Source of the DNA: Pirellulales bacterium
GTDB taxonomy: Bacteria > Planctomycetota > Planctomycetia > Pirellulales > JAGQOS01
Direction of reading: 5' to 3'
DNA length: 35,361 nt
NCBI GenBank assembly: GCA_028289525.1
Contig: JANQPJ010000225.1
Location: forward strand, 1 to 35,361
Shown here piece by piece: positions 8,583-29,952 of the stretch; within the stretch, counting starts at the first letter, position 1, and every line of letters starts with the position of its first letter. Below the pieces are notes generated by a model. It worked only from the letters and a program-made list of their open reading frames with translations, ran no database searches and had not been told where the DNA came from. The position numbers were made by a program, and so were the translations under genes.

Positions 8583-8648
8583 GAGTGCATTCCGTGGTGA
8601 AACCTGATGCACTCGCCTGTGTTTCGCGAGCGGTCACCGACCGCTGCT
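8583..8648. repeat. Hairpin plus half copy of the 126-bp palindromic element between convergent genes
   Basis: gagtgcat (8583-8590) pairs with atgcactc (8607-8614), giving an 8-bp stem. The loop contains ccgtggtgaa, also found at 5079-5088. Next, 8619-8648 is one half of the dispersed element: gtttcgcgag followed by the hairpin gcggtcaccgaccgc. The hairpin could end transcription from either side, but there is no T-tract, so this is not called a terminator. Confidence 0.7.
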
Positions 8649-9591: not shown

Positions 9592-9895
9592 CGGAAACAA
9601 CTCCTGAATCTCAAAGGTGGGACGATTCACCGTCAACTGGCGTGGACGTGAAGGCAGGAAAACATCGCGAGGGCAACCATCAGGCGATCAACGATTAACC
9701 ATGCTACTGTTTCAACCGGCAGTCGTCAAATTTTTTGCTCTGTCCCCAGGAGAACTGCAAAGTCGTTCTTTTGAAAAAGCAGCGGTCGGTGACCGCTCGC
9801 GAAACGGCTAAATTTTTCTGTTTCGCGAGCGGCCGCCGGCCGCTGCTTTTTGTCGACATCGTGTTTCTCCTGCGGGAGATTTTGAGAGAGAACGG
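9592..9895. other. 304-bp intergenic region between ThuA and rsmA
   Basis: It consists largely of a full-length, diverged copy of the dispersed palindromic element (9746-9873). The remainder (9592-9745) holds the ribosome site of the ThuA gene (ctcctg at 9601-9606 on the plus strand) and no other feature that I can support. Confidence 0.6.
9746..9873. repeat. Dispersed palindromic element, diverged full copy
   Basis: The left end, ccaggagaactgcaaagtcg, is a variant of the 19-bp terminal repeat seen at 20348 and 20455; the right end (tttctcctgcgg) is more decayed. The core has hairpin gcggtcggtgaccgc with ctcgcgaaac, then gtttcgcgag with hairpin gcggccgccggccgc. The two nine-base arms tcgcgaaac and gtttcgcga can pair with each other, so the whole can fold as a cloverleaf-like cruciform. 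Confidence 0.8.
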
Positions 9896-17001: not shown

Positions 17002-17164
17002 ATGCATTTCAAAACCAACACAAGCACGACACGCAAGCGAGTGAATACGTTACGCTTCAATTCACTCGCTTGCGCGTCGTGCTTGTATTGCCATCGGACA
17101 GTGCGCTGTCCAACTAGTGCTGCGCGTCTTGTATTTGCATAAATAACACGGTTTTGAAATACGC
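17002..17164. repeat. Nested inverted-repeat element between convergent genes
   Basis: Outer arms: atttcaaaacc near 17005-17015 and its complement ggttttgaaat at about 17150-17160. Inside is a 25-bp stem with one mismatch, caagcacgacacgcaagcga(gtgaa) at 17021-17045 with its complement at 17061-17085, around a 15-nt loop. A second hairpin, ggacagtgcgctgtcc, lies at 17096-17111. It lies between the convergent ABC ATPase and NPCBM genes. It might stop transcription, but there is no T-tract. The aagcacgacgcg core is shared with 2245-2255 and about 20338-20347. Confidence 0.75.
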
Positions 17165-17192: not shown

Positions 17193-18431
17193 TTAGCGAA
17201 CCAGCCGTGCTCCTAGCCAATTGGCGTGGTCGAGTTCGTCCCCCCGTTCGGCGAACTCGACCATTAGCGTGATTCCTTGCGCACCAGTTAGATCGACCGA
17301 CACTGGCAACGCTGCATCGCCGCCGCGCACCACGGGGCTACGATAGGCCTCACTCCATTTTCCATCGCGATTCAAATAGACACGAAACACGACACTCCCC
17401 TTCCCTGCGGCCGAATCGTCGATCGCCAACTCGGCATCGAAACGCGTGAACGGTTCGTCAAGCCGATAGGCCACTCTGGCAGCGCTGTGCATGCCTAGCC
17501 CTTTCAAGTAGCCGCGCCCCCGACACCGGAGCCGATTGCCAAGCACGTTACGATCGGCGACCAACGGCCAGACCACCGTCCAATACGGCACGTGCCGATA
17601 GCTGAGCGGCGACAGGTCGGACAGGTAATGATACTCTGGCCGATTGCCGATCGGCTGCACAAGCACCACTTCACTGACCGCCAGTCTGGTGAGCGTCTGG
17701 CCACCTTCGGCCAGTTTGACCTGGAGCGTGTTTCCCGTGCCAGCGACCGACTCGGCCGGCAGTTGGGTACCGTTGCGCAGTCCGATCATCACCTTCGGCA
17801 AATCGTCAGCGCTCGCCGAGCGTTTGACATGGCCCAACCGAATCGCCATCAACTGTGCCAGCTCCACCTCCAAGGGGCCGGTGCTGGTCGTCATTCGTAC
17901 GACGTCGTCGGCCAGCTCAAGATCAGCGCCGCTTAACACATCTCCGTTGCTAAGCAGCAACTGATCTTTATCATCTTGCCAGTCGGCCAGGCGGCGTAGC
18001 AACCGGTCTTGCCCCGGCAGATCGGCCGGCAACTGGAAAACCACCGCCTGCACCTGCTGGCGAGCAAACGTCAGCATGGCCAAGGCATCGGTTTCGATTT
18101 GTACCTGGCGTCGTTCGATCCGAACGACCGGTCCCAGGATCGTAGGGTCAGAGGCGACAATGATCCCGCCATGGACGGTTAATACCAACGGTGCCCGTTG
18201 AGCTTCGGCTGGTGCGCCCCAGACGACCAGTTCCTCCAACGGCACCAGACGCTCCGTGTCTTCCGCCTGCAGGCGGAGTGTTCCTTGGTCGGCGATTCCG
18301 ACGAGCATCGCTGAAGACGCCAAGCCGTCGACCATTTGGAGTCGCCGAGCCTCAGGCGACTTTGCCTGCAACGGAGCGGTGAGCACGGCCAGCAGGAGCC
18401 AGGCAAATTGTGTTTTTCGGACTAAGGTCAT
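17193..18431 (-). CDS. Secreted NPCBM-domain protein (412 aa)
   Basis: Signal peptide at residues 1-23 (KTQFAWLLLAVLTAP, then LQA). The middle part (about 30-275) is beta-rich, with repeated short blocks of the type 'LSNGDVLSGADLELADD' that resemble each other loosely; I do not recognise it. The C-terminal ~145 residues form an NPCBM/NEW2-like carbohydrate-binding module: LSPLSYRHVPYWTVVWPLV, then KGLGMHSAARVAYRLDEPFTRFDAELAIDD, VVFRVYLNRDGKWSEAYRSPVV and HANWLGARLVR at the end. This module binds sugars in secreted proteins. The start is an ATG with no good ribosome site. It is the last gene of the long minus-strand string, separated from the gene before it by one copy of the mobile palindromic element. 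Confidence 0.88.
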   Translation of the reverse strand: MTLVRKTQFAWLLLAVLTAPLQAKSPEARRLQMVDGLASSAMLVGIADQGTLRLQAEDTERLVPLEELVVWGAPAEAQRAPLVLTVHGGIIVASDPTILGPVVRIERRQVQIETDALAMLTFARQQVQAVVFQLPADLPGQDRLLRRLADWQDDKDQLLLSNGDVLSGADLELADDVVRMTTSTGPLEVELAQLMAIRLGHVKRSASADDLPKVMIGLRNGTQLPAESVAGTGNTLQVKLAEGGQTLTRLAVSEVVLVQPIGNRPEYHYLSDLSPLSYRHVPYWTVVWPLVADRNVLGNRLRCRGRGYLKGLGMHSAARVAYRLDEPFTRFDAELAIDDSAAGKGSVVFRVYLNRDGKWSEAYRSPVVRGGDAALPVSVDLTGAQGITLMVEFAERGDELDHANWLGARLVR

Positions 18432-18443
18432 GACAAATGGGCA

Positions 18444-18580
18444 TGGTTAGCGCAGGAGAAAGTCAACGATTCTACAAAAACAGCGGTCGGTGACCGCTCG
18501 CGAAACACTCAATTTCACTTGTTTCGCGAGGGACCACCGGTCCCTGCTTTTCGACTTTGCAATCCTCCTGGTGGTTAGCG
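18444..18580. mobile_element. Dispersed palindromic element (18453-18571) with 9-bp flanking direct repeat
   Basis: The element body, 18453-18571, ends with the terminal repeat gactttgcaatcctcctgg (18553-18571). The left terminal repeat has lost about six bases. The 9-mer tggttagcg occurs directly on both sides (18444-18452 and 18572-18580) and looks like a target-site duplication. Read on the minus strand, the right copy contains the last codon (CGC) and the TAA stop of the squalene-cyclase-like gene, so the insertion left that gene intact. The body is the reverse complement of the 20348-20473 copy with four substitutions apart from the deletion. There is no transposase gene, so movement would need one in trans. 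Confidence 0.8.
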
Positions 18581-19648
18581 TTGAAAAATGGGCAAACAGT
18601 TGTTGGGGATCTGTAAAATAATACACGCCATTGCGGTGCCATACTCTTGGCAAATCGAATCCATCCACGAGCCGTTCGGGCGTTGTCGGGCCAGCAGCGT
18701 ATCGCGAATCGCCGGATACCAAGTTTGCCAGTGTTCTCCCCCAGCATGCCACATCGCCTGCACGGCGTAGTAATGGCCGTAGAAATAGTGGTTGTCGCGC
18801 GTAGTGGCCGCGCCGCGCGGCAGATGTTCGAGCAAGTATTTGAGCCCCCGTTCGAGTTCGCGGCCCTCATAAATCCCTGCGCTGTAGAGCGCCACCACGC
18901 CGGCGGCCGATCGCGGAAAAGCGCTCTGCCCTCCTTGGACCATATACATAAACCCGCCGTCGACGTTCTGGCTCCGCTGCACATAGTCAATGCACCGGTC
19001 GATGGTTTTGGGCGGAACGTGCAGCCCGGCGTTGCGAGCCGCTCGTAGGGCCATCACCTGACAGATGGTGACCGAGATGTCGGCATCGCGCCGGCGAGGT
19101 TGATAACGCCAGCCGCCTTCGGCGTTTTGAGTTTCGACGATCAGCTTGACCGCCTTGGTCAGCTTGGGTCGTACCTCGCCGCGTCGGGCCATGCCATACA
19201 CTTGGGTAAGAAACAACGTGGCAAAACCATGGCCATACATCGGCCCATGACTGCTGGCGCCAGGCACGGTCAAGAAACCGCTCTCTTGGGCATGTCGGAG
19301 CACATAGTCGACACACCGGTCAATCTGCACGCCATAAGGTCCACGCCCTGGGGTACTGCCAGAGGACAACCAGGCCATGCCGGCCAGCGAACAGACGGCG
19401 ATGTTCCCACGGTAGCCGCCAGGACCGAACGAGCCATCAGGCTGCTGACGCTCGGCGAGAAAATCGAGTCCGCGCTGGACCGCCGCACTGGTGGCCGGGG
19501 TAACCATCTGGCTGGCCGAACGTTCTGGGTCGTCTGCCTTGGCCCAGGAAACCGCCCTAGCGGCCCAAGGGGCGCAAGCACACCGGATCAAAAACGAACG
19601 TCGCCCCGGGCGCACGACACACGGCAAATTTTTCGACCGGTCATCCAT
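18575..19648 (-). CDS. Squalene-cyclase/prenyltransferase-repeat protein, probably exported (357 aa)
   Basis: Contains repeated alpha-alpha-barrel motifs of the prenyltransferase and squalene oxidase repeat family: GLDFLAERQQPDGSFGPGGYRGNIAVCSLAGMAWL, the block ending TQNAEGGWRYQPRRRDADISVTICQVMALRAA (about 175-200), and IDYVQRSQNVDGGFMYM. The N-terminus has a twin-arginine-like RRSFLI at about 17-22 followed by a cysteine- and alanine-rich stretch, which suggests Tat export; this is moderate evidence. No DxDD-type cyclase acid motif is visible, so enzymatic cyclisation is doubtful. Such proteins recur in planctomycete MoxR/VWA operons with unknown role. The start is 21 bases after the preceding gene, so the two are likely co-transcribed. 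Confidence 0.88.
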   Translation of the reverse strand: MDDRSKNLPCVVRPGRRSFLIRCACAPWAARAVSWAKADDPERSASQMVTPATSAAVQRGLDFLAERQQPDGSFGPGGYRGNIAVCSLAGMAWLSSGSTPGRGPYGVQIDRCVDYVLRHAQESGFLTVPGASSHGPMYGHGFATLFLTQVYGMARRGEVRPKLTKAVKLIVETQNAEGGWRYQPRRRDADISVTICQVMALRAARNAGLHVPPKTIDRCIDYVQRSQNVDGGFMYMVQGGQSAFPRSAAGVVALYSAGIYEGRELERGLKYLLEHLPRGAATTRDNHYFYGHYYAVQAMWHAGGEHWQTWYPAIRDTLLARQRPNGSWMDSICQEYGTAMACIILQIPNNCLPIFQR

Positions 19649-19669
19649 GGATTGCCTGTCTGTTGGGCG

Positions 19670-20536
19670 TTAAGGTCGCTCATCGGGCATTTCGGCCAGA
19701 CGACGATAATATTTTTCCAGCAGCAGTTCATACTTCGGCAAAAAACGCTCGGCCGAGAACTGTAACATTTGTTCCCGGGCTCGCTCTGGCAAATGCCCCC
19801 AAGCGTCTTTCATCAGCGCCTGCGGATTCGCTCCGCGATCGACCTGAGCAACGCGCGCCTGTCCGGCCCGTTGGCTGGCCTGCCGCGCACGCTCAGAGGA
19901 CGTCCGGTCGGCACCGGTGGTTTGCTGCCGGGGTCGCCGCACCTGAGAACGACGGCTGCCTGGCGACTTCTGTCCTCCGCCACTGGACGACTGCCGGCTT
20001 GCCCGACGGGCTTGGTCGATCAAAGCGGCCAAGTCCTTGACGATCTGCTCCTGCAACCGGCGAGTCGACTTGCCACCAGACTGCTCGGCCAGTTGTTGCT
20101 CGACTTGGCGCATCTGCTGGCCAATCTTGGTCAGCGGATCGTTTGCGGCCGTCAGGTCAACATCTTCTCCGAAGTGGCGTTCCAACTCGCGATCGAATGA
20201 CTCGGCCGATTCATCCTCCAGATTGTCGAGCCCTTGGAGCAACAAGGTTTCCAATTCGTCGCCAGGCTCATCTGCCCTGGCCGGAGCGAGCAAGACCAAC
20301 CCCAGTAGCACCAGACTTTGTCCCAAAACCAATACAAGCACGACGCGCCAGGAGGATTGCAAAGTCGAAAAGCAGGGACCGGTGGTCCCTCGCGAAACAA
20401 GCGAAATTGAGTGTTTCGCGAGCGGCCGCCGGCCGCTGTTTTTGTAGAATCGTTGACTTTGCAATCCTCCTGGAACAAAGCCCAGGCTCGCTTGCAAAAG
20501 CGTTTTCCGTTTAAAATGTTTTTCAGCGCGTGCCAT
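19670..20536 (-). CDS. Small secreted protein of the MoxR/VWA operon with a mobile repeat inside its signal region (288 aa)
   Basis: Family not named. The conserved part is the C-terminus (about 235-288): DAWGHLPERAREQMLQFSAERFLP followed by KYELLLEKYYRRLAE, seen in proteins of this operon type in planctomycetes. The middle is a charged, Gln/Arg/Ser-rich linker. The ATG at 20536 has GGAG eight bases upstream and overlaps the DUF4175 stop by 14 bases. Residues 22-63 are encoded exactly by the palindromic element at 20348-20473 (126 bp, 42 codons, no stop). Removing them joins the basic MARAEKHFKRKTLLQ segment to the hydrophobic VVLVLVLGQSLVLLGLVLLA-PARA segment, restoring an ordinary signal peptide. 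A downstream GTG start at 20341 would lack a basic n-region. Confidence 0.75.
   Translation of the reverse strand: MARAEKHFKRKTLLQASLGFVPGGLQSQRFYKNSGRRPLAKHSISLVSRGTTGPCFSTLQSSWRVVLVLVLGQSLVLLGLVLLAPARADEPGDELETLLLQGLDNLEDESAESFDRELERHFGEDVDLTAANDPLTKIGQQMRQVEQQLAEQSGGKSTRRLQEQIVKDLAALIDQARRASRQSSSGGGQKSPGSRRSQVRRPRQQTTGADRTSSERARQASQRAGQARVAQVDRGANPQALMKDAWGHLPERAREQMLQFSAERFLPKYELLLEKYYRRLAEMPDERP
20348..20473. mobile_element. Dispersed palindromic element, 126 bp, with perfect 19-bp terminal inverted repeats
   Basis: ccaggaggattgcaaagtc (20348-20366) is perfectly inverted at 20455-20473. Inside are hairpin agggaccggtggtccct, arm ctcgcgaaac, arm gtttcgcgag and hairpin gcggccgccggccgc. Compared with the 18453 copy, the right-hand stem carries C-G where the other has T-A, a paired (compensatory) change. 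No direct repeat flanks this copy. It lies in the coding region of the 19670-20536 gene and keeps the frame. Confidence 0.85.
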
Positions 20537-23500
20537 GAGGACTCTCCAAAATCAATTCTGGCAGATCGGCATCGCCGTTGTCCAATTCCAACGCGGGAAA
20601 TTCGCCGGCGTCATTCGATTCGACCGGCTGGACCAGGTCGAGCACCAATTCGGCCAATCGCCCCTGCTCTTCGGCCAGCCGCTGACGATCGGCCGGAGAA
20701 GCCCCTTGGTTTTCTAACTCGACCGTCCGCCGGTTGAGGTCTTCTTGCATCACCTTGACCAACTTGAGTTCGGCCAGATTGCGCAACGGCTGCCCCCCCT
20801 GCCCTGTTTGGCCGCCTTGCCCACCGGCTTGCTGCCCCTGTGGCGCAGGGGCACCAGTTTGGTCGAGCGCCGATTGCAGTTGGGTTAAACGTTGCCAGGC
20901 ACGTTTTTGGAATCGCGGCCCATCGGTCGCCGGTCGACCTTGCTCAAGCGCCACGACTGCTTGCGTCATGTCGGCAGCGATCTGGTTCAACGCAAACCGA
21001 AACACACTCGTCGATGGCAAGCGTTCGGCGTGAGCAGCAACCTCCCCGGCCAATGCCCGCTGAGCTTGGGCTAAGTCTGTCAGCTTCTGCGCGTCCTCGG
21101 CCAGGCGTGTCTGGGTATCATCCAGCAACCGTCGTTGTCGGGCAATCATGTTCTGAACCGCGTCGGCGAATTGGGCCAGTTGCTCCTCGGCCAAGTCGGC
21201 TTCGGCCGGAGCCCGAGCTTGGGCCAATTGCTGTTGGGCTTGGTGCAAATCACGCTCGCCGGCCGCAGTCTGCCTGGCCGCGCCGGAACCATCTCCGCCT
21301 TCAGACGTCCGACGGGCACCGGCCAACTGCTCGGCTGCCCGATCGAGCGTGTCGGCCGCCTGTTGTGCTTGCAAGCGTCGCAAACGACGCGCGAGCCGCT
21401 CGACTTCTGCTTGGATTTGCTGCTGCTTGGCAGTCAACCGTTGGAGCGTTTGCTGGTGCTGTTCTGAATCGTCGGTGCCGGCGGCCTGTTCGAGTTGTTG
21501 CCGCAAGCCTTGCTGTTGTTGGCGAAGCTGAGCCAACGTCTGCTCAGCTTGCCGAAGCTTCGACACCAGGCGGGCTAACTCGTGTTCACGCCGATTGGCC
21601 AGTGTGTCGAACAATTCGCGCAGGTGGCGGGCAATCCGCGTTTGGCGATCGGCCGCTTGGCCCAGCCGGTTTTGAGTAATCTCGGCGCTGGCCTGACGCA
21701 TCGCGCCGCTGAGCGCGGCGCGGCGAGCTTGGTCCAAGGCATCAGTCAACGTGGTGGCCACCAACGGGTTTTCTTCCTCCAACTGCCTGGCCATCTGCCG
21801 CATGCCTTCGAGAGCCCGATCCAACCGTCGGGCCAGTTCGAGTTGGTCGAGCGCCGCCTTGCGCAAGTCAGCCCGTTGCTGCCGCGACAAATCGCCAAAC
21901 GCCTTGGTCAACGTGCCTGGCCGTCGCTCGGTGCCGGTGGCCACCTCGGCCGTGCGACGGTGTACCTGCTCTTGCTGCCGCTGGAGATCGCGCACATCAT
22001 GCGCAAAACGCCGATAGTCGACCCACTCAGATAAGTCGCCCAACAGCCGGCGAATCTCGGCAACTACCTGATCTTGCCCTTGGACGGCCGCCTGCAACGG
22101 CCGCAGCGCGGGATGGGGCGCGCCGGCCGGCGCTGGCTGTTCGACACTGGCGTCGGCCGTCTTGAACGCTGTGGTCAACCACTGTTCGACCTGGGGCAAG
22201 GCAGCCCGTTCGAGCCGCCCCAGCACATCCAAGATGCCTGCCATCTGCCGCCGGACGGCCGGGCTGTCGACTTGGTTGCTATCCAAATCGTCCAACAAAC
22301 GGTGAATCGAGCGTGGCAGACCGTCGGTCTCGTCGGCCAACATCTGGCGGATTTGCCGTTGGTTGAGCTGTGCCGCCTGGAGCCGGTCGAGATCGGCCTT
22401 GGTCGCCTGGCCGATCTCTTCGATCTGCACGCTGGCCGCGCGGGTTTGGCCTTGGGTCTTCTCCTGCATCGTGGCCACGCGGGCTAGCTCATCGAGAATC
22501 AATTGCTGCCGTCCGGCCAACCGGTCTTCCAGCTCTTCGGCCGTAATGATCGTGATCCGCCGAGGCCAACGGCTCTGGCCATAGGCAACCTGATAATCGC
22601 TCGCCTGAGCTGACATCAGAAGTTGGGTGCCTGGCGGAAGCGTCAAGTCGGCCAATTTCCACACCCAACGGACCACGCGCTGATCGCCCTCCTCGCCCTC
22701 TTGGGACCACGCTCGCTTTGGCGGCTGCTCGGGCCCGGTGTATAAGGTCTCGCGAAATTCTCCGGCTTGCGAACGGTCGCTGCGCGTGTAACTGAGCACC
22801 ACGTCGCGGATTGCCAAATTGTCGCGCACCAAAATGCGAACCGGCAACTCTGCCTGAGCGGTGGCATAAAGCATCTCGCCCGGCCGCTCGATCACCACAC
22901 TCGGGGCCGGGTCGGGCACCGCGACCATTGTCCAGCGCCGACGATCGCCTCCGGTGAGCCCAGCGTCTGAAGTCAAGGTAAACCCATACTCGCCTGACTC
23001 CTCGAGCGTCCAATGCCGCCGAGGCAGCCGAAAACCGCGCCGATTGGCGGTCAATTCGAGCGGCGCCGCGCCGCCTGGCTCTCGGTTCAACCGCGCCGCG
23101 GTCAACGGTTTGGTAGCCGTGCCGGTAATTTCGATTTCGGTTCCGCGCCAGGCGCGAATGCGGCCCTCCGCACCCGTTGTCGGCAAGCCGGTATACGCGG
23201 CCGGGTGCAACACGACTCGGAACGATTCGACACGCGGCGGCTCGACCACTTCAAGATCGCGCCACGGCATCGTTTGATCGTCTCCGCCGGTTGCCCGATA
23301 TTGAAACGAGCGAGTTACACGCTCCTTACCGGCCGCCATCAACTGGCCGAACCGCTGCATCGGCTCCGACTCGACCGGCGACCAGCGACCGTCGACCTGA
23401 TAACGATAATGAATCAAAACCCGAGCAGGCAACTCGCCGTTGCGATCGGTCAGCTCGACCTCGAACGGTTGCCCTAGGGCAAGTCGGGCAGGCGGGTCGC

Positions 23501-24092
23501 GAAACTCCAACCGATGCTGGCGAGGCCAAGCGGCGTCGGCAAAAGGATTCGTCAATCGGGCGACCCCAATCCGCAGTGTCGAAGCATCCCAAACGAACAA
23601 ACCGAGAACAACCAGCAATACGACGCTGGCAAACCGCCAAGCACGCCGCACCGGACGCGGATCGACGATCGCCTGCAAATCCAACGTCTCAACCTGGGCC
23701 GCGGCGTGGTGAACCACGGCCCGGCGCAAGGCAGCCGAACCGGCCCCAGGTTCGTTGTCTTCACTTTGCAAAAAGGCCACGGCGCTGGAGAGCCGTTGAC
23801 CGAGCTCGGGGAACCGACGTTCGAGTTGTTGGGCCACCGTGAGGTCAGTGACTTCGACTCGCACGGTCGGCAGCAGCAGCCGCACCACCGAATAAAGGCC
23901 AACGGCCAGAGCCAACAACGAACCGATGATCCGCAGACCTTGGTCTTCAAGTCGCACCACGAAATCGATCAAGCCTAACAACAACCAGCCTCCGACAAGC
24001 AGGCTGGCTGCGCGCAACAGACCACATTGCCAGGCCGAGACGCGTACCCGGCGGCCGATCGTGCGGAGCTGTTGTTGCAGTGGGTGAAGCAT
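20523..24092 (-). CDS. DUF4175-like membrane protein with long coiled-coil region (1189 aa)
   Basis: Three hydrophobic helices lie near the N-terminus (about 27-46, 55-72 and 150-166). Next comes a presumably periplasmic beta-rich part (about 175-520; for example EFRDPPARLALGQPFEVELTDRNG and FRVVLHPAAYTGLPT). A very long, Gln/Arg-rich helical and coiled-coil region follows (about 530-1130), and the tail is acidic. The arrangement matches the DUF4175-type proteins found with MoxR-VWA genes in bacteria. The cellular role is unknown; a scaffold or stress-related envelope function is only inferred. The ATG at 24092 is preferred. An ATG at 24155 would start inside the palindromic repeat at 24135-24168 and adds a sequence unlike a membrane-protein N-terminus. 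The stop overlaps the next gene by 14 bases. Confidence 0.85.
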   Translation of the reverse strand: MLHPLQQQLRTIGRRVRVSAWQCGLLRAASLLVGGWLLLGLIDFVVRLEDQGLRIIGSLLALAVGLYSVVRLLLPTVRVEVTDLTVAQQLERRFPELGQRLSSAVAFLQSEDNEPGAGSAALRRAVVHHAAAQVETLDLQAIVDPRPVRRAWRFASVVLLVVLGLFVWDASTLRIGVARLTNPFADAAWPRQHRLEFRDPPARLALGQPFEVELTDRNGELPARVLIHYRYQVDGRWSPVESEPMQRFGQLMAAGKERVTRSFQYRATGGDDQTMPWRDLEVVEPPRVESFRVVLHPAAYTGLPTTGAEGRIRAWRGTEIEITGTATKPLTAARLNREPGGAAPLELTANRRGFRLPRRHWTLEESGEYGFTLTSDAGLTGGDRRRWTMVAVPDPAPSVVIERPGEMLYATAQAELPVRILVRDNLAIRDVVLSYTRSDRSQAGEFRETLYTGPEQPPKRAWSQEGEEGDQRVVRWVWKLADLTLPPGTQLLMSAQASDYQVAYGQSRWPRRITIITAEELEDRLAGRQQLILDELARVATMQEKTQGQTRAASVQIEEIGQATKADLDRLQAAQLNQRQIRQMLADETDGLPRSIHRLLDDLDSNQVDSPAVRRQMAGILDVLGRLERAALPQVEQWLTTAFKTADASVEQPAPAGAPHPALRPLQAAVQGQDQVVAEIRRLLGDLSEWVDYRRFAHDVRDLQRQQEQVHRRTAEVATGTERRPGTLTKAFGDLSRQQRADLRKAALDQLELARRLDRALEGMRQMARQLEEENPLVATTLTDALDQARRAALSGAMRQASAEITQNRLGQAADRQTRIARHLRELFDTLANRREHELARLVSKLRQAEQTLAQLRQQQQGLRQQLEQAAGTDDSEQHQQTLQRLTAKQQQIQAEVERLARRLRRLQAQQAADTLDRAAEQLAGARRTSEGGDGSGAARQTAAGERDLHQAQQQLAQARAPAEADLAEEQLAQFADAVQNMIARQRRLLDDTQTRLAEDAQKLTDLAQAQRALAGEVAAHAERLPSTSVFRFALNQIAADMTQAVVALEQGRPATDGPRFQKRAWQRLTQLQSALDQTGAPAPQGQQAGGQGGQTGQGGQPLRNLAELKLVKVMQEDLNRRTVELENQGASPADRQRLAEEQGRLAELVLDLVQPVESNDAGEFPALELDNGDADLPELILESPHGTR

Positions 24093-24134
24093 GAGTCGAT
24101 TCAATGTGACGAGATCGGAAGCTTTTCGTGGATT

Positions 24135-24323
24135 GTACTCGGTCCGGCGATGCATTGCATCGCGGCTAGGGAACTCTCATTGTCTAGAGCAACTTTCAGG
24201 TTTGTGTAGCGATGTTTCGTCGAGAAGCATCGGAAAAACCAGAGTCACGACCGCTATAGTCCCGTGCAACTTGCACTAGCGTTTGACAATAGCCGCGATG
24301 CAATGCATCGCCGGACCGAGTAC
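24135..24323. repeat. 189-bp element with perfect 34-bp terminal inverted repeats
   Basis: 24135-24168 (begins gtactcggtccggcgatg) is perfectly inverted at 24290-24323. Each arm holds its own palindrome, cgatgcattgcatcg. A related palindrome occurs at 4986-5012. There is no coding potential between the arms. It fills almost the whole 252-bp gap between the VWA/GATase-like gene and the DUF4175 gene, and may affect read-through within the operon. Confidence 0.85.
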
Positions 24324-29920: not shown

Positions 29921-29952
29921 CAGCAGCGGTCGGTGACCGCTCGCGAAACACC
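29921..29952. repeat. Half copy of the dispersed palindromic element
   Basis: agcagcggtcggtgaccgct followed by cgcgaaacac is the left half of the element (hairpin plus the cgcgaaac arm). It lies in the 206-bp gap between MoxR and DUF58. No terminal repeats are present. Confidence 0.75.

Follow-up and report, generated by a model that had tools for sequence, protein, structure and literature searches.

The gene at 19670-20536 of the window analysed here, a 35,361-nucleotide stretch that constitutes contig C351 of a 4.04-Mb Pirellulales metagenome-assembled genome (MAG) in 425 contigs, is read in frame through a palindromic element at 20348-20473, which resembles a miniature inverted-repeat transposable element (MITE) and lies within the region encoding a signal peptide. 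The best explanation of the observations as a whole, and in our judgement a probable one, is a tolerated insertion that lengthened the cytosolic n-region of the signal peptide with basic, stop-free codons. The features of the host gene on which this proposal is based are as follows.

19670..20536, minus strand: host gene, encoding a predicted exported protein of unknown function (288 aa, no Pfam match) with the element in its signal peptide.
20474..20536, minus strand: ancestral n-region MARAEKHFKRKTLLQASLGFV, whose ATG has a 14-nt overlap with the stop of the upstream gene.
20348..20473, minus strand: palindromic MITE-like element copy, read in frame as host-gene residues 22-63 (consensus core 20349-20472, 124 bp).
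20273..20347, minus strand: hydrophobic core and cleavage region RVVLVLVLGQSLVLLGLVLLAPARA.
20523..24155, minus strand: upstream gene P0002, whose stop overlaps the host-gene start; a homologue precedes the orthologues.

The open reading frame runs through the element without a stop, and its translation (P22...W63) matches exactly the 42 sense codons that an earlier note on this DNA had counted. Removal of the element in silico joins MARAEKHFKRKTLLQASLGFV to a hydrophobic core ending in APARA, bearing out the same note's statement that deletion would fuse a basic n-region to a core ending in PARA, and the features of a Sec signal peptide (a basic n-region, a hydrophobic core, and an A-x-A cleavage site) are present by composition. 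The placing of the element within a signal peptide agrees with the orthologues of the host gene from related genomes: the element segment was found in none of them, and most carry ordinary short signal peptides. In the nearest relative, the element-free signal MRSKLALVLLVALFAQLGTTGQA is followed by EDVENLDADLEALLLEDL, which is alignable to the focal DEPGDELETLLLQGL; the relatives compared are distant orthologues, 42-45% identical, from Planctomycetota/Pirellulales MAGs.

Start positions were compared at the 27 orthologous loci where a P0002 homologue could be placed. At 15 of these the P0002 homologue ends in a stop that overlaps the orthologue ATG, the offset being -4 at 12 loci, -1 at two, and -11 for the nearest relative; the focal ATG is at -14. 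A start near 20341 in all orthologues, the pattern that had been named in advance as telling against an insertion, was thus not observed. Because most of these orthologue ATGs overlap the homologous upstream-gene stop, the start at 20536 is ancestral and coupled to the P0002 stop. Since the start is ancestral and the signal of the nearest relative is element-free, the element entered a pre-existing signal peptide, separating its basic n-region from its hydrophobic core.

The element copy itself is highly structured, and its parts are listed below.

20348..20366, unstranded: terminal inverted repeat arm 1 (CCAGGAGGATTGCAAAGTC), a perfect 19-bp inverted end.
20455..20473, unstranded: terminal inverted repeat arm 2, a perfect 19-bp inverted end.
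20421..20437, minus strand: hairpin 1 (AGCGGCC-GGC-GGCCGCT in the sense orientation), a loop variant without TGA.
20391..20420, minus strand: central hairpin (CGCGAAACA...TGTTTCGCG in the sense orientation).
20374..20390, minus strand: hairpin 2 (AGGGACC-ACC-GGTCCCT in the sense orientation).

The perfect 19-bp ends were found where the earlier note had described them. Its observation that the element boundaries coincide with codon boundaries holds for a segment of 126 bp, but this is a coincidence of that choice of length, the core of the focal copy being CAGG...CCTG, 124 bp, and the outermost C/G pair not being part of the family consensus. The copy also contains an inner 32-nt inverted repeat (81%). 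For the element strand, folding energies of -72.6 kcal/mol as RNA (z = -10.4) and of -42.4 kcal/mol as DNA (z = -9.1) were obtained, and none of 200 shuffles did as well in either case. In an alignment of copies, the three-hairpin interior was observed to be conserved, with 92% of cells paired and with 62 double-sided changes in helix cells versus 31 in shuffles, a signal that drops when the partners are slid. No curated Rfam family of structured RNAs matched 18300-20700 up to E = 1. One outer end of the element, CAGGAGGA, is Shine-Dalgarno-like, and the opposite end, TCCTCCTG, is anti-Shine-Dalgarno-like.

Its occurrence in many copies, its terminal inverted repeats, and the duplications of its target sites uphold the designation of the element as mobile. 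At least 40 copies were scored in its own genome, the genome copies number more than 100, and the end sequence CAGGANRAYTGCAAAGTC gave 411 genome matches at up to 2 mismatches, as against 0 and 1 when the pattern was reversed. Most complete copies measure 124 bp (CAGG...CCTG), but a longer form of 131-139 bp also occurs, and a few copies are shorter; the family ends are CAGGAGGATTGCAAAGTC, and the terminal inverted repeats are ~18-19 bp long. Target duplications in the family are ~9-12 bp, exact 11/11 duplications being found at copies L013 (CATCCTGGGCA) and L025 (CTCGCCTTCAT), and a flank identity of at least 7/11 was seen in 9/43 copies versus 1.3% of random flank pairings. Because many copies carry such flanking duplications, the element is concluded to have moved. 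A search of 57 further genomes from the order, among them the nearest genome and the sole one of the same family, found no element copies. With terminal inverted repeats, target-site duplication, and dozens of short, dispersed copies (mostly 124-139 bp) without an internal transposase, the family is best read as a lineage-specific, non-autonomous palindromic MITE. Assignment to the REP/BIME repeats, which are associated with a Y1 REP transposase and lack target duplications, is excluded by the target duplications present. Pairs of ends 2.5-2.8 kb apart (C226, C241) were considered as an autonomous parent and rejected, as they enclose ordinary genes and no transposase. For the focal copy, the following flanks match at 7/11 (chance ~0.013), which is suggestive only.

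20474..20484, minus strand: upstream flank (GGGCTTTGTTC, up to one base offset), a possible decayed 11-bp target-site duplication.
20337..20347, minus strand: downstream flank (GCGCGTCGTGC, up to one base offset), the possible duplication partner, which is also the end of a second repeat family.

Other members of the family occur in the window. A second copy, at 18453-18570, is ~96% identical to the focal copy over 113 bp, lies in the opposite orientation, and has a small left-end deletion and a 9-bp duplication, TGGTTAGCG, at 18444-18452 and 18572-18580; it is placed where the 18575-19648 gene has its 3' end, and the next gene follows after 27 bp. A third copy (9747-9872, 126 bp) is located between two minus-strand genes. 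Short matches to hairpin 1 (CAGCGGTCGGTGACCGCTCGCGAAAC) without the remainder of the element, at 8619-8646 and 29924-29951, suggest modules common to several repeat families. Many contigs of the MAG (C3, C8, C10, C37, C71, C84, and others) end 30-200 bp from an element end; the repeat is probably a main cause of the fragmentation of the MAG, with the copy number underestimated.

Preservation of the reading frame follows from two properties of the insertion: the 124-bp core plus an 11-bp target duplication amounts to 135 bp, or 45 codons, and the focal copy has a stop-free variant of hairpin 1 (CGGCGGCCG). The sense frame used by the host gene is open in just 2 of 16 aligned 124-bp copies, because most copies have a TGA in hairpin 1 (CGGTGACCG); the focal copy is the sole one of the 16 without a stop in any of the three sense frames. 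A second frame, sense frame 1, is open in 16/16 copies, but shuffling the alignment columns gives 15.9, so that selection for open frames across the copies is not supported; the openness of this frame is a property of the family sequence and no evidence of coding selection.

The same arrangement recurs elsewhere in the genome, in at least four other signal-peptide genes, a feature missed by the earlier note. In a TPR protein (C285, L025), the copy splits MNRYATRLLAF from MALLLGLAVCQANA between the two units of the exact 11-bp duplication, the sequence after the element is LAFMALLLGLAVCQANA, and the N-termini of the orthologues are free of the element, several of them being plain signal peptides. 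A YCF48/BNR protein (C340, L158) has an in-frame copy between MNRPAFRAACARAA and RWFAWLIALTGQTALA, with GGAGG 6 nt before its ATG; a HEAT-repeat protein (C150, L104), whose nearest relative has an element-free signal, has a decayed copy between MRTISDHQVKEQ and LLAATTLLWSFLLNDARA; and a DUF1207 protein (C24, L124) has a copy with an eroded left end ahead of MLVIGVALFLPATALGQA. All four additional in-frame copies lie between the start and the hydrophobic core of predicted exported proteins, and the element-encoded stretches carry a net charge of +1 to +8 and leave the hydrophobic core intact. An in-frame palindrome of ~100-150 bp with element-free orthologues, as in the Rickettsia elements discussed below, was found at the focal gene and in C285, with C150, C340, and C24 as supporting cases. 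A crude signal-peptide test passes ~23% of called genes, giving a nominal chance of 0.0006 for 5/5, a count made after the pattern had been noticed and on loci among which those with long open frames were fetched preferentially; the status of three of the other genes was judged by eye, their long n-regions being missed by the crude test. Further in-frame candidates, with names read by eye from the sequence, were set aside because each has its real start after the element, namely thrS (C410, MLQVALPDG...), panB (C129), a DUF1015-like protein (C241), a prepilin (C67), and a secreted protein (C106).

The five genes with in-frame copies are exceptions in the distribution of the family, as nearly all of 148 sampled copies are intergenic. 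Gaps between converging genes are depleted (6/106 copies, versus 15 expected by length; 1/89 in an earlier, smaller sample), so that the copies lie mostly on the 5' side of genes. Their orientation to genes is unbiased (30 same, 23 opposite), and an orientation-specific regulatory role was rejected on this ground. No in-frame copies were found in the interior of other protein parts among the 148 copies and ~388 kb of called coding sequence, the remaining overlaps with called genes being either short and at gene 3' ends or from doubtful gene calls. The 3'-end overlaps measure 59 bp in L013 (C397, 2006-2129) and 31-46 bp in L028, L115, L141, and L160; in these five genes the element may supply a C-terminal tail and stop codon.

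According to the explanation that we favour, a MITE landed in an existing signal peptide, where its basic n-region meets its hydrophobic core, and translation most likely still begins at the ancestral, coupled ATG at 20536, giving an n-region of ~63 residues. The additional Arg/Lys-rich segment would remain cytosolic and be removed together with the signal peptide, leaving the mature protein unchanged, and the insertion would for that reason be neutral or nearly so. The 5'-side bias would bring insertions near starts, and the n-region is presumably the nearest coding stretch to a start with room for 45 residues, since it stays in the cytosol, is variable, and is eventually cleaved away. We infer translation through the element, retained export, neutrality, and a mobilising enzyme. 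Several observations weigh against this proposal. A crude codon-usage gene finder puts the start at 20341, which is to be expected if the element differs from typical coding sequence, and a start at TTG 20364 would yield MQSSWRVVLVLVLGQSLVLLGLVLLAPARA, likewise a good signal peptide. The focal duplication is imperfect and its downstream half is also part of another repeat, so that the match may be due to chance. Furthermore, in a draft genome broken at repeats, searches with DDE_Tnp_1, ISAs1, and Transposase_mut found no transposase with element ends (a single DDE_Tnp_1 match lacked them, and the other two gave none).

The first two of these points are also consistent with a different account, in which the element cut the start from the gene body, translation now begins at TTG 20364 or GTG 20341, and the upstream ATG and its 21 codons are an open relic. 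The product MQSSWRVVLVLVL... passes a simple signal-peptide test, coding statistics favour the start at 20341, and the very stable RNA hairpin lies in the path of ribosomes coming from 20536. However, a Shine-Dalgarno-like GGAG is positioned 7 nt upstream of the ATG at 20536, whereas no such sequence precedes TTG 20364 or GTG 20341; the upstream frame is still open, although it is rarely so among the aligned copies; and upstream start and frame are kept in C285 and C340 too. We therefore regard a displaced start as unlikely and, of the two outcomes that the earlier note had left side by side, favour the extended n-region over a forced new start.

Recurrence at signal peptides could alternatively mean that the element has been exapted, with its basic codons or the 5' mRNA hairpin tuning the targeting or translation of exported proteins and the copies persisting as a result. 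The five coding 5'-end insertions, all in signal-peptide genes against the crude-test background, the Arg/Lys-rich element strand, and the preservation of helix pairs by double changes are in line with such a role. Tolerance alone, however, predicts an equal bias, gene orientation is unbiased, frame openness is fully accounted for by column composition, and, across the five copies, the hairpin region is read in two different frames; exaptation is accordingly considered quite unlikely. That the segment is instead an ancient, intrinsic part of the protein family, or was created by misassembly at a repeat, seems very improbable: many contigs of the MAG do end inside these repeats, but the focal copy is interior to a 35-kb contig, the segment is in no orthologue, and the C285 copy has an exact 11-bp target duplication. 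Tolerated lengthening of the n-region remains the preferred reading. It is conceivable, though unlikely, that n-regions are a recurrent docking site and the element a mobile "signal-peptide extender", whose 37-45-residue element-encoded n-regions may affect how the proteins are targeted or translated.

A second palindromic repeat family adjoins the element in the host gene.

20332..20347, plus strand: ATACAAGCACGACGCG, an arm of the second palindromic repeat family; the first hydrophobic codons (RVVLV) lie in it.

The core of this repeat, AAGCACGACGCG, which the earlier note had recognised in the hydrophobic codons, has 61 exact copies in the genome versus 0 in controls, often as inverted pairs. 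Its extension to the 16-bp ATACAAGCACGACGCG is common to the focal site and three other sampled places. The further suggestion that much of the signal is repeat-derived holds for a 16-bp match over the first few hydrophobic codons, but not for most of the core; thus, the start of the hydrophobic core (RVVLV) probably derives from an arm of this other repeat, and most of the core does not. Sites of the second family in the window are at 17022-17084, 2241-2252, and 20332-20347, with AAGCACGACGCG arms ~57 bp apart. In L079, L120, and L168, the second repeat is found close to the same CAGGA..GCAAAGTC ends, and the two families may accordingly be modular.

Palindromic elements of 100-150 bp that lie in frame in protein genes and are tolerated there have been described in Rickettsia (Rickettsia palindromic elements, RPE) and Wolbachia (PMC10969869, PMC2229807), and the Pirellulales palindrome is like them in being in frame in protein genes, a likeness drawn from their descriptions. 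Unlike RPE, which enter many parts of many proteins, its in-frame copies were found at signal peptides only, and it has visible target duplications, whereas those of RPE are listed as "?" (PMC2229807). Membership of RPE proper, a large share of whose copies are in protein genes, is excluded by the mostly intergenic location of the sampled copies. In Yersinia, the RU-2/YPAL element forms part of the signal of YPO1552, relatives of which have unrelated, element-free signals (Delihas 2007, PMC2759123). Both cases show a repeat within the signal and element-free signals in relatives; RU-2, however, supplies a signal by fusion, whereas the Pirellulales element splits existing signals, with start and core kept, in five genes of one genome. 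The Correia/NEMIS elements of Neisseria are short MITEs bearing terminal inverted repeats and concentrated upstream of genes (PMC10969869), and the Pirellulales element is similarly short, bears such repeats, and lies mostly 5' of genes, but its ends are CAGG and not the 5'-TA of Correia/NEMIS (PMC2229807). The closest precedents are RPE and Yersinia RU-2. A literature search turned up no relevant description of a MITE family in Planctomycetes.

Overall, the five cases suggest that the n-region of signal peptides is a soft target for mobile DNA, and an undescribed, lineage-specific family would be added to the short list of bacterial palindromes known to be read as protein. Within a single genome, the same functional site has received the insertion five times. 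Cleavage of the signal peptide should take the inserted residues away with it, so that these natural insertions would provide a clean test of two questions: how much additional sequence the n-region of a bacterial protein can accommodate, and whether mobile DNA persists within genes chiefly where the product it encodes is thrown away.
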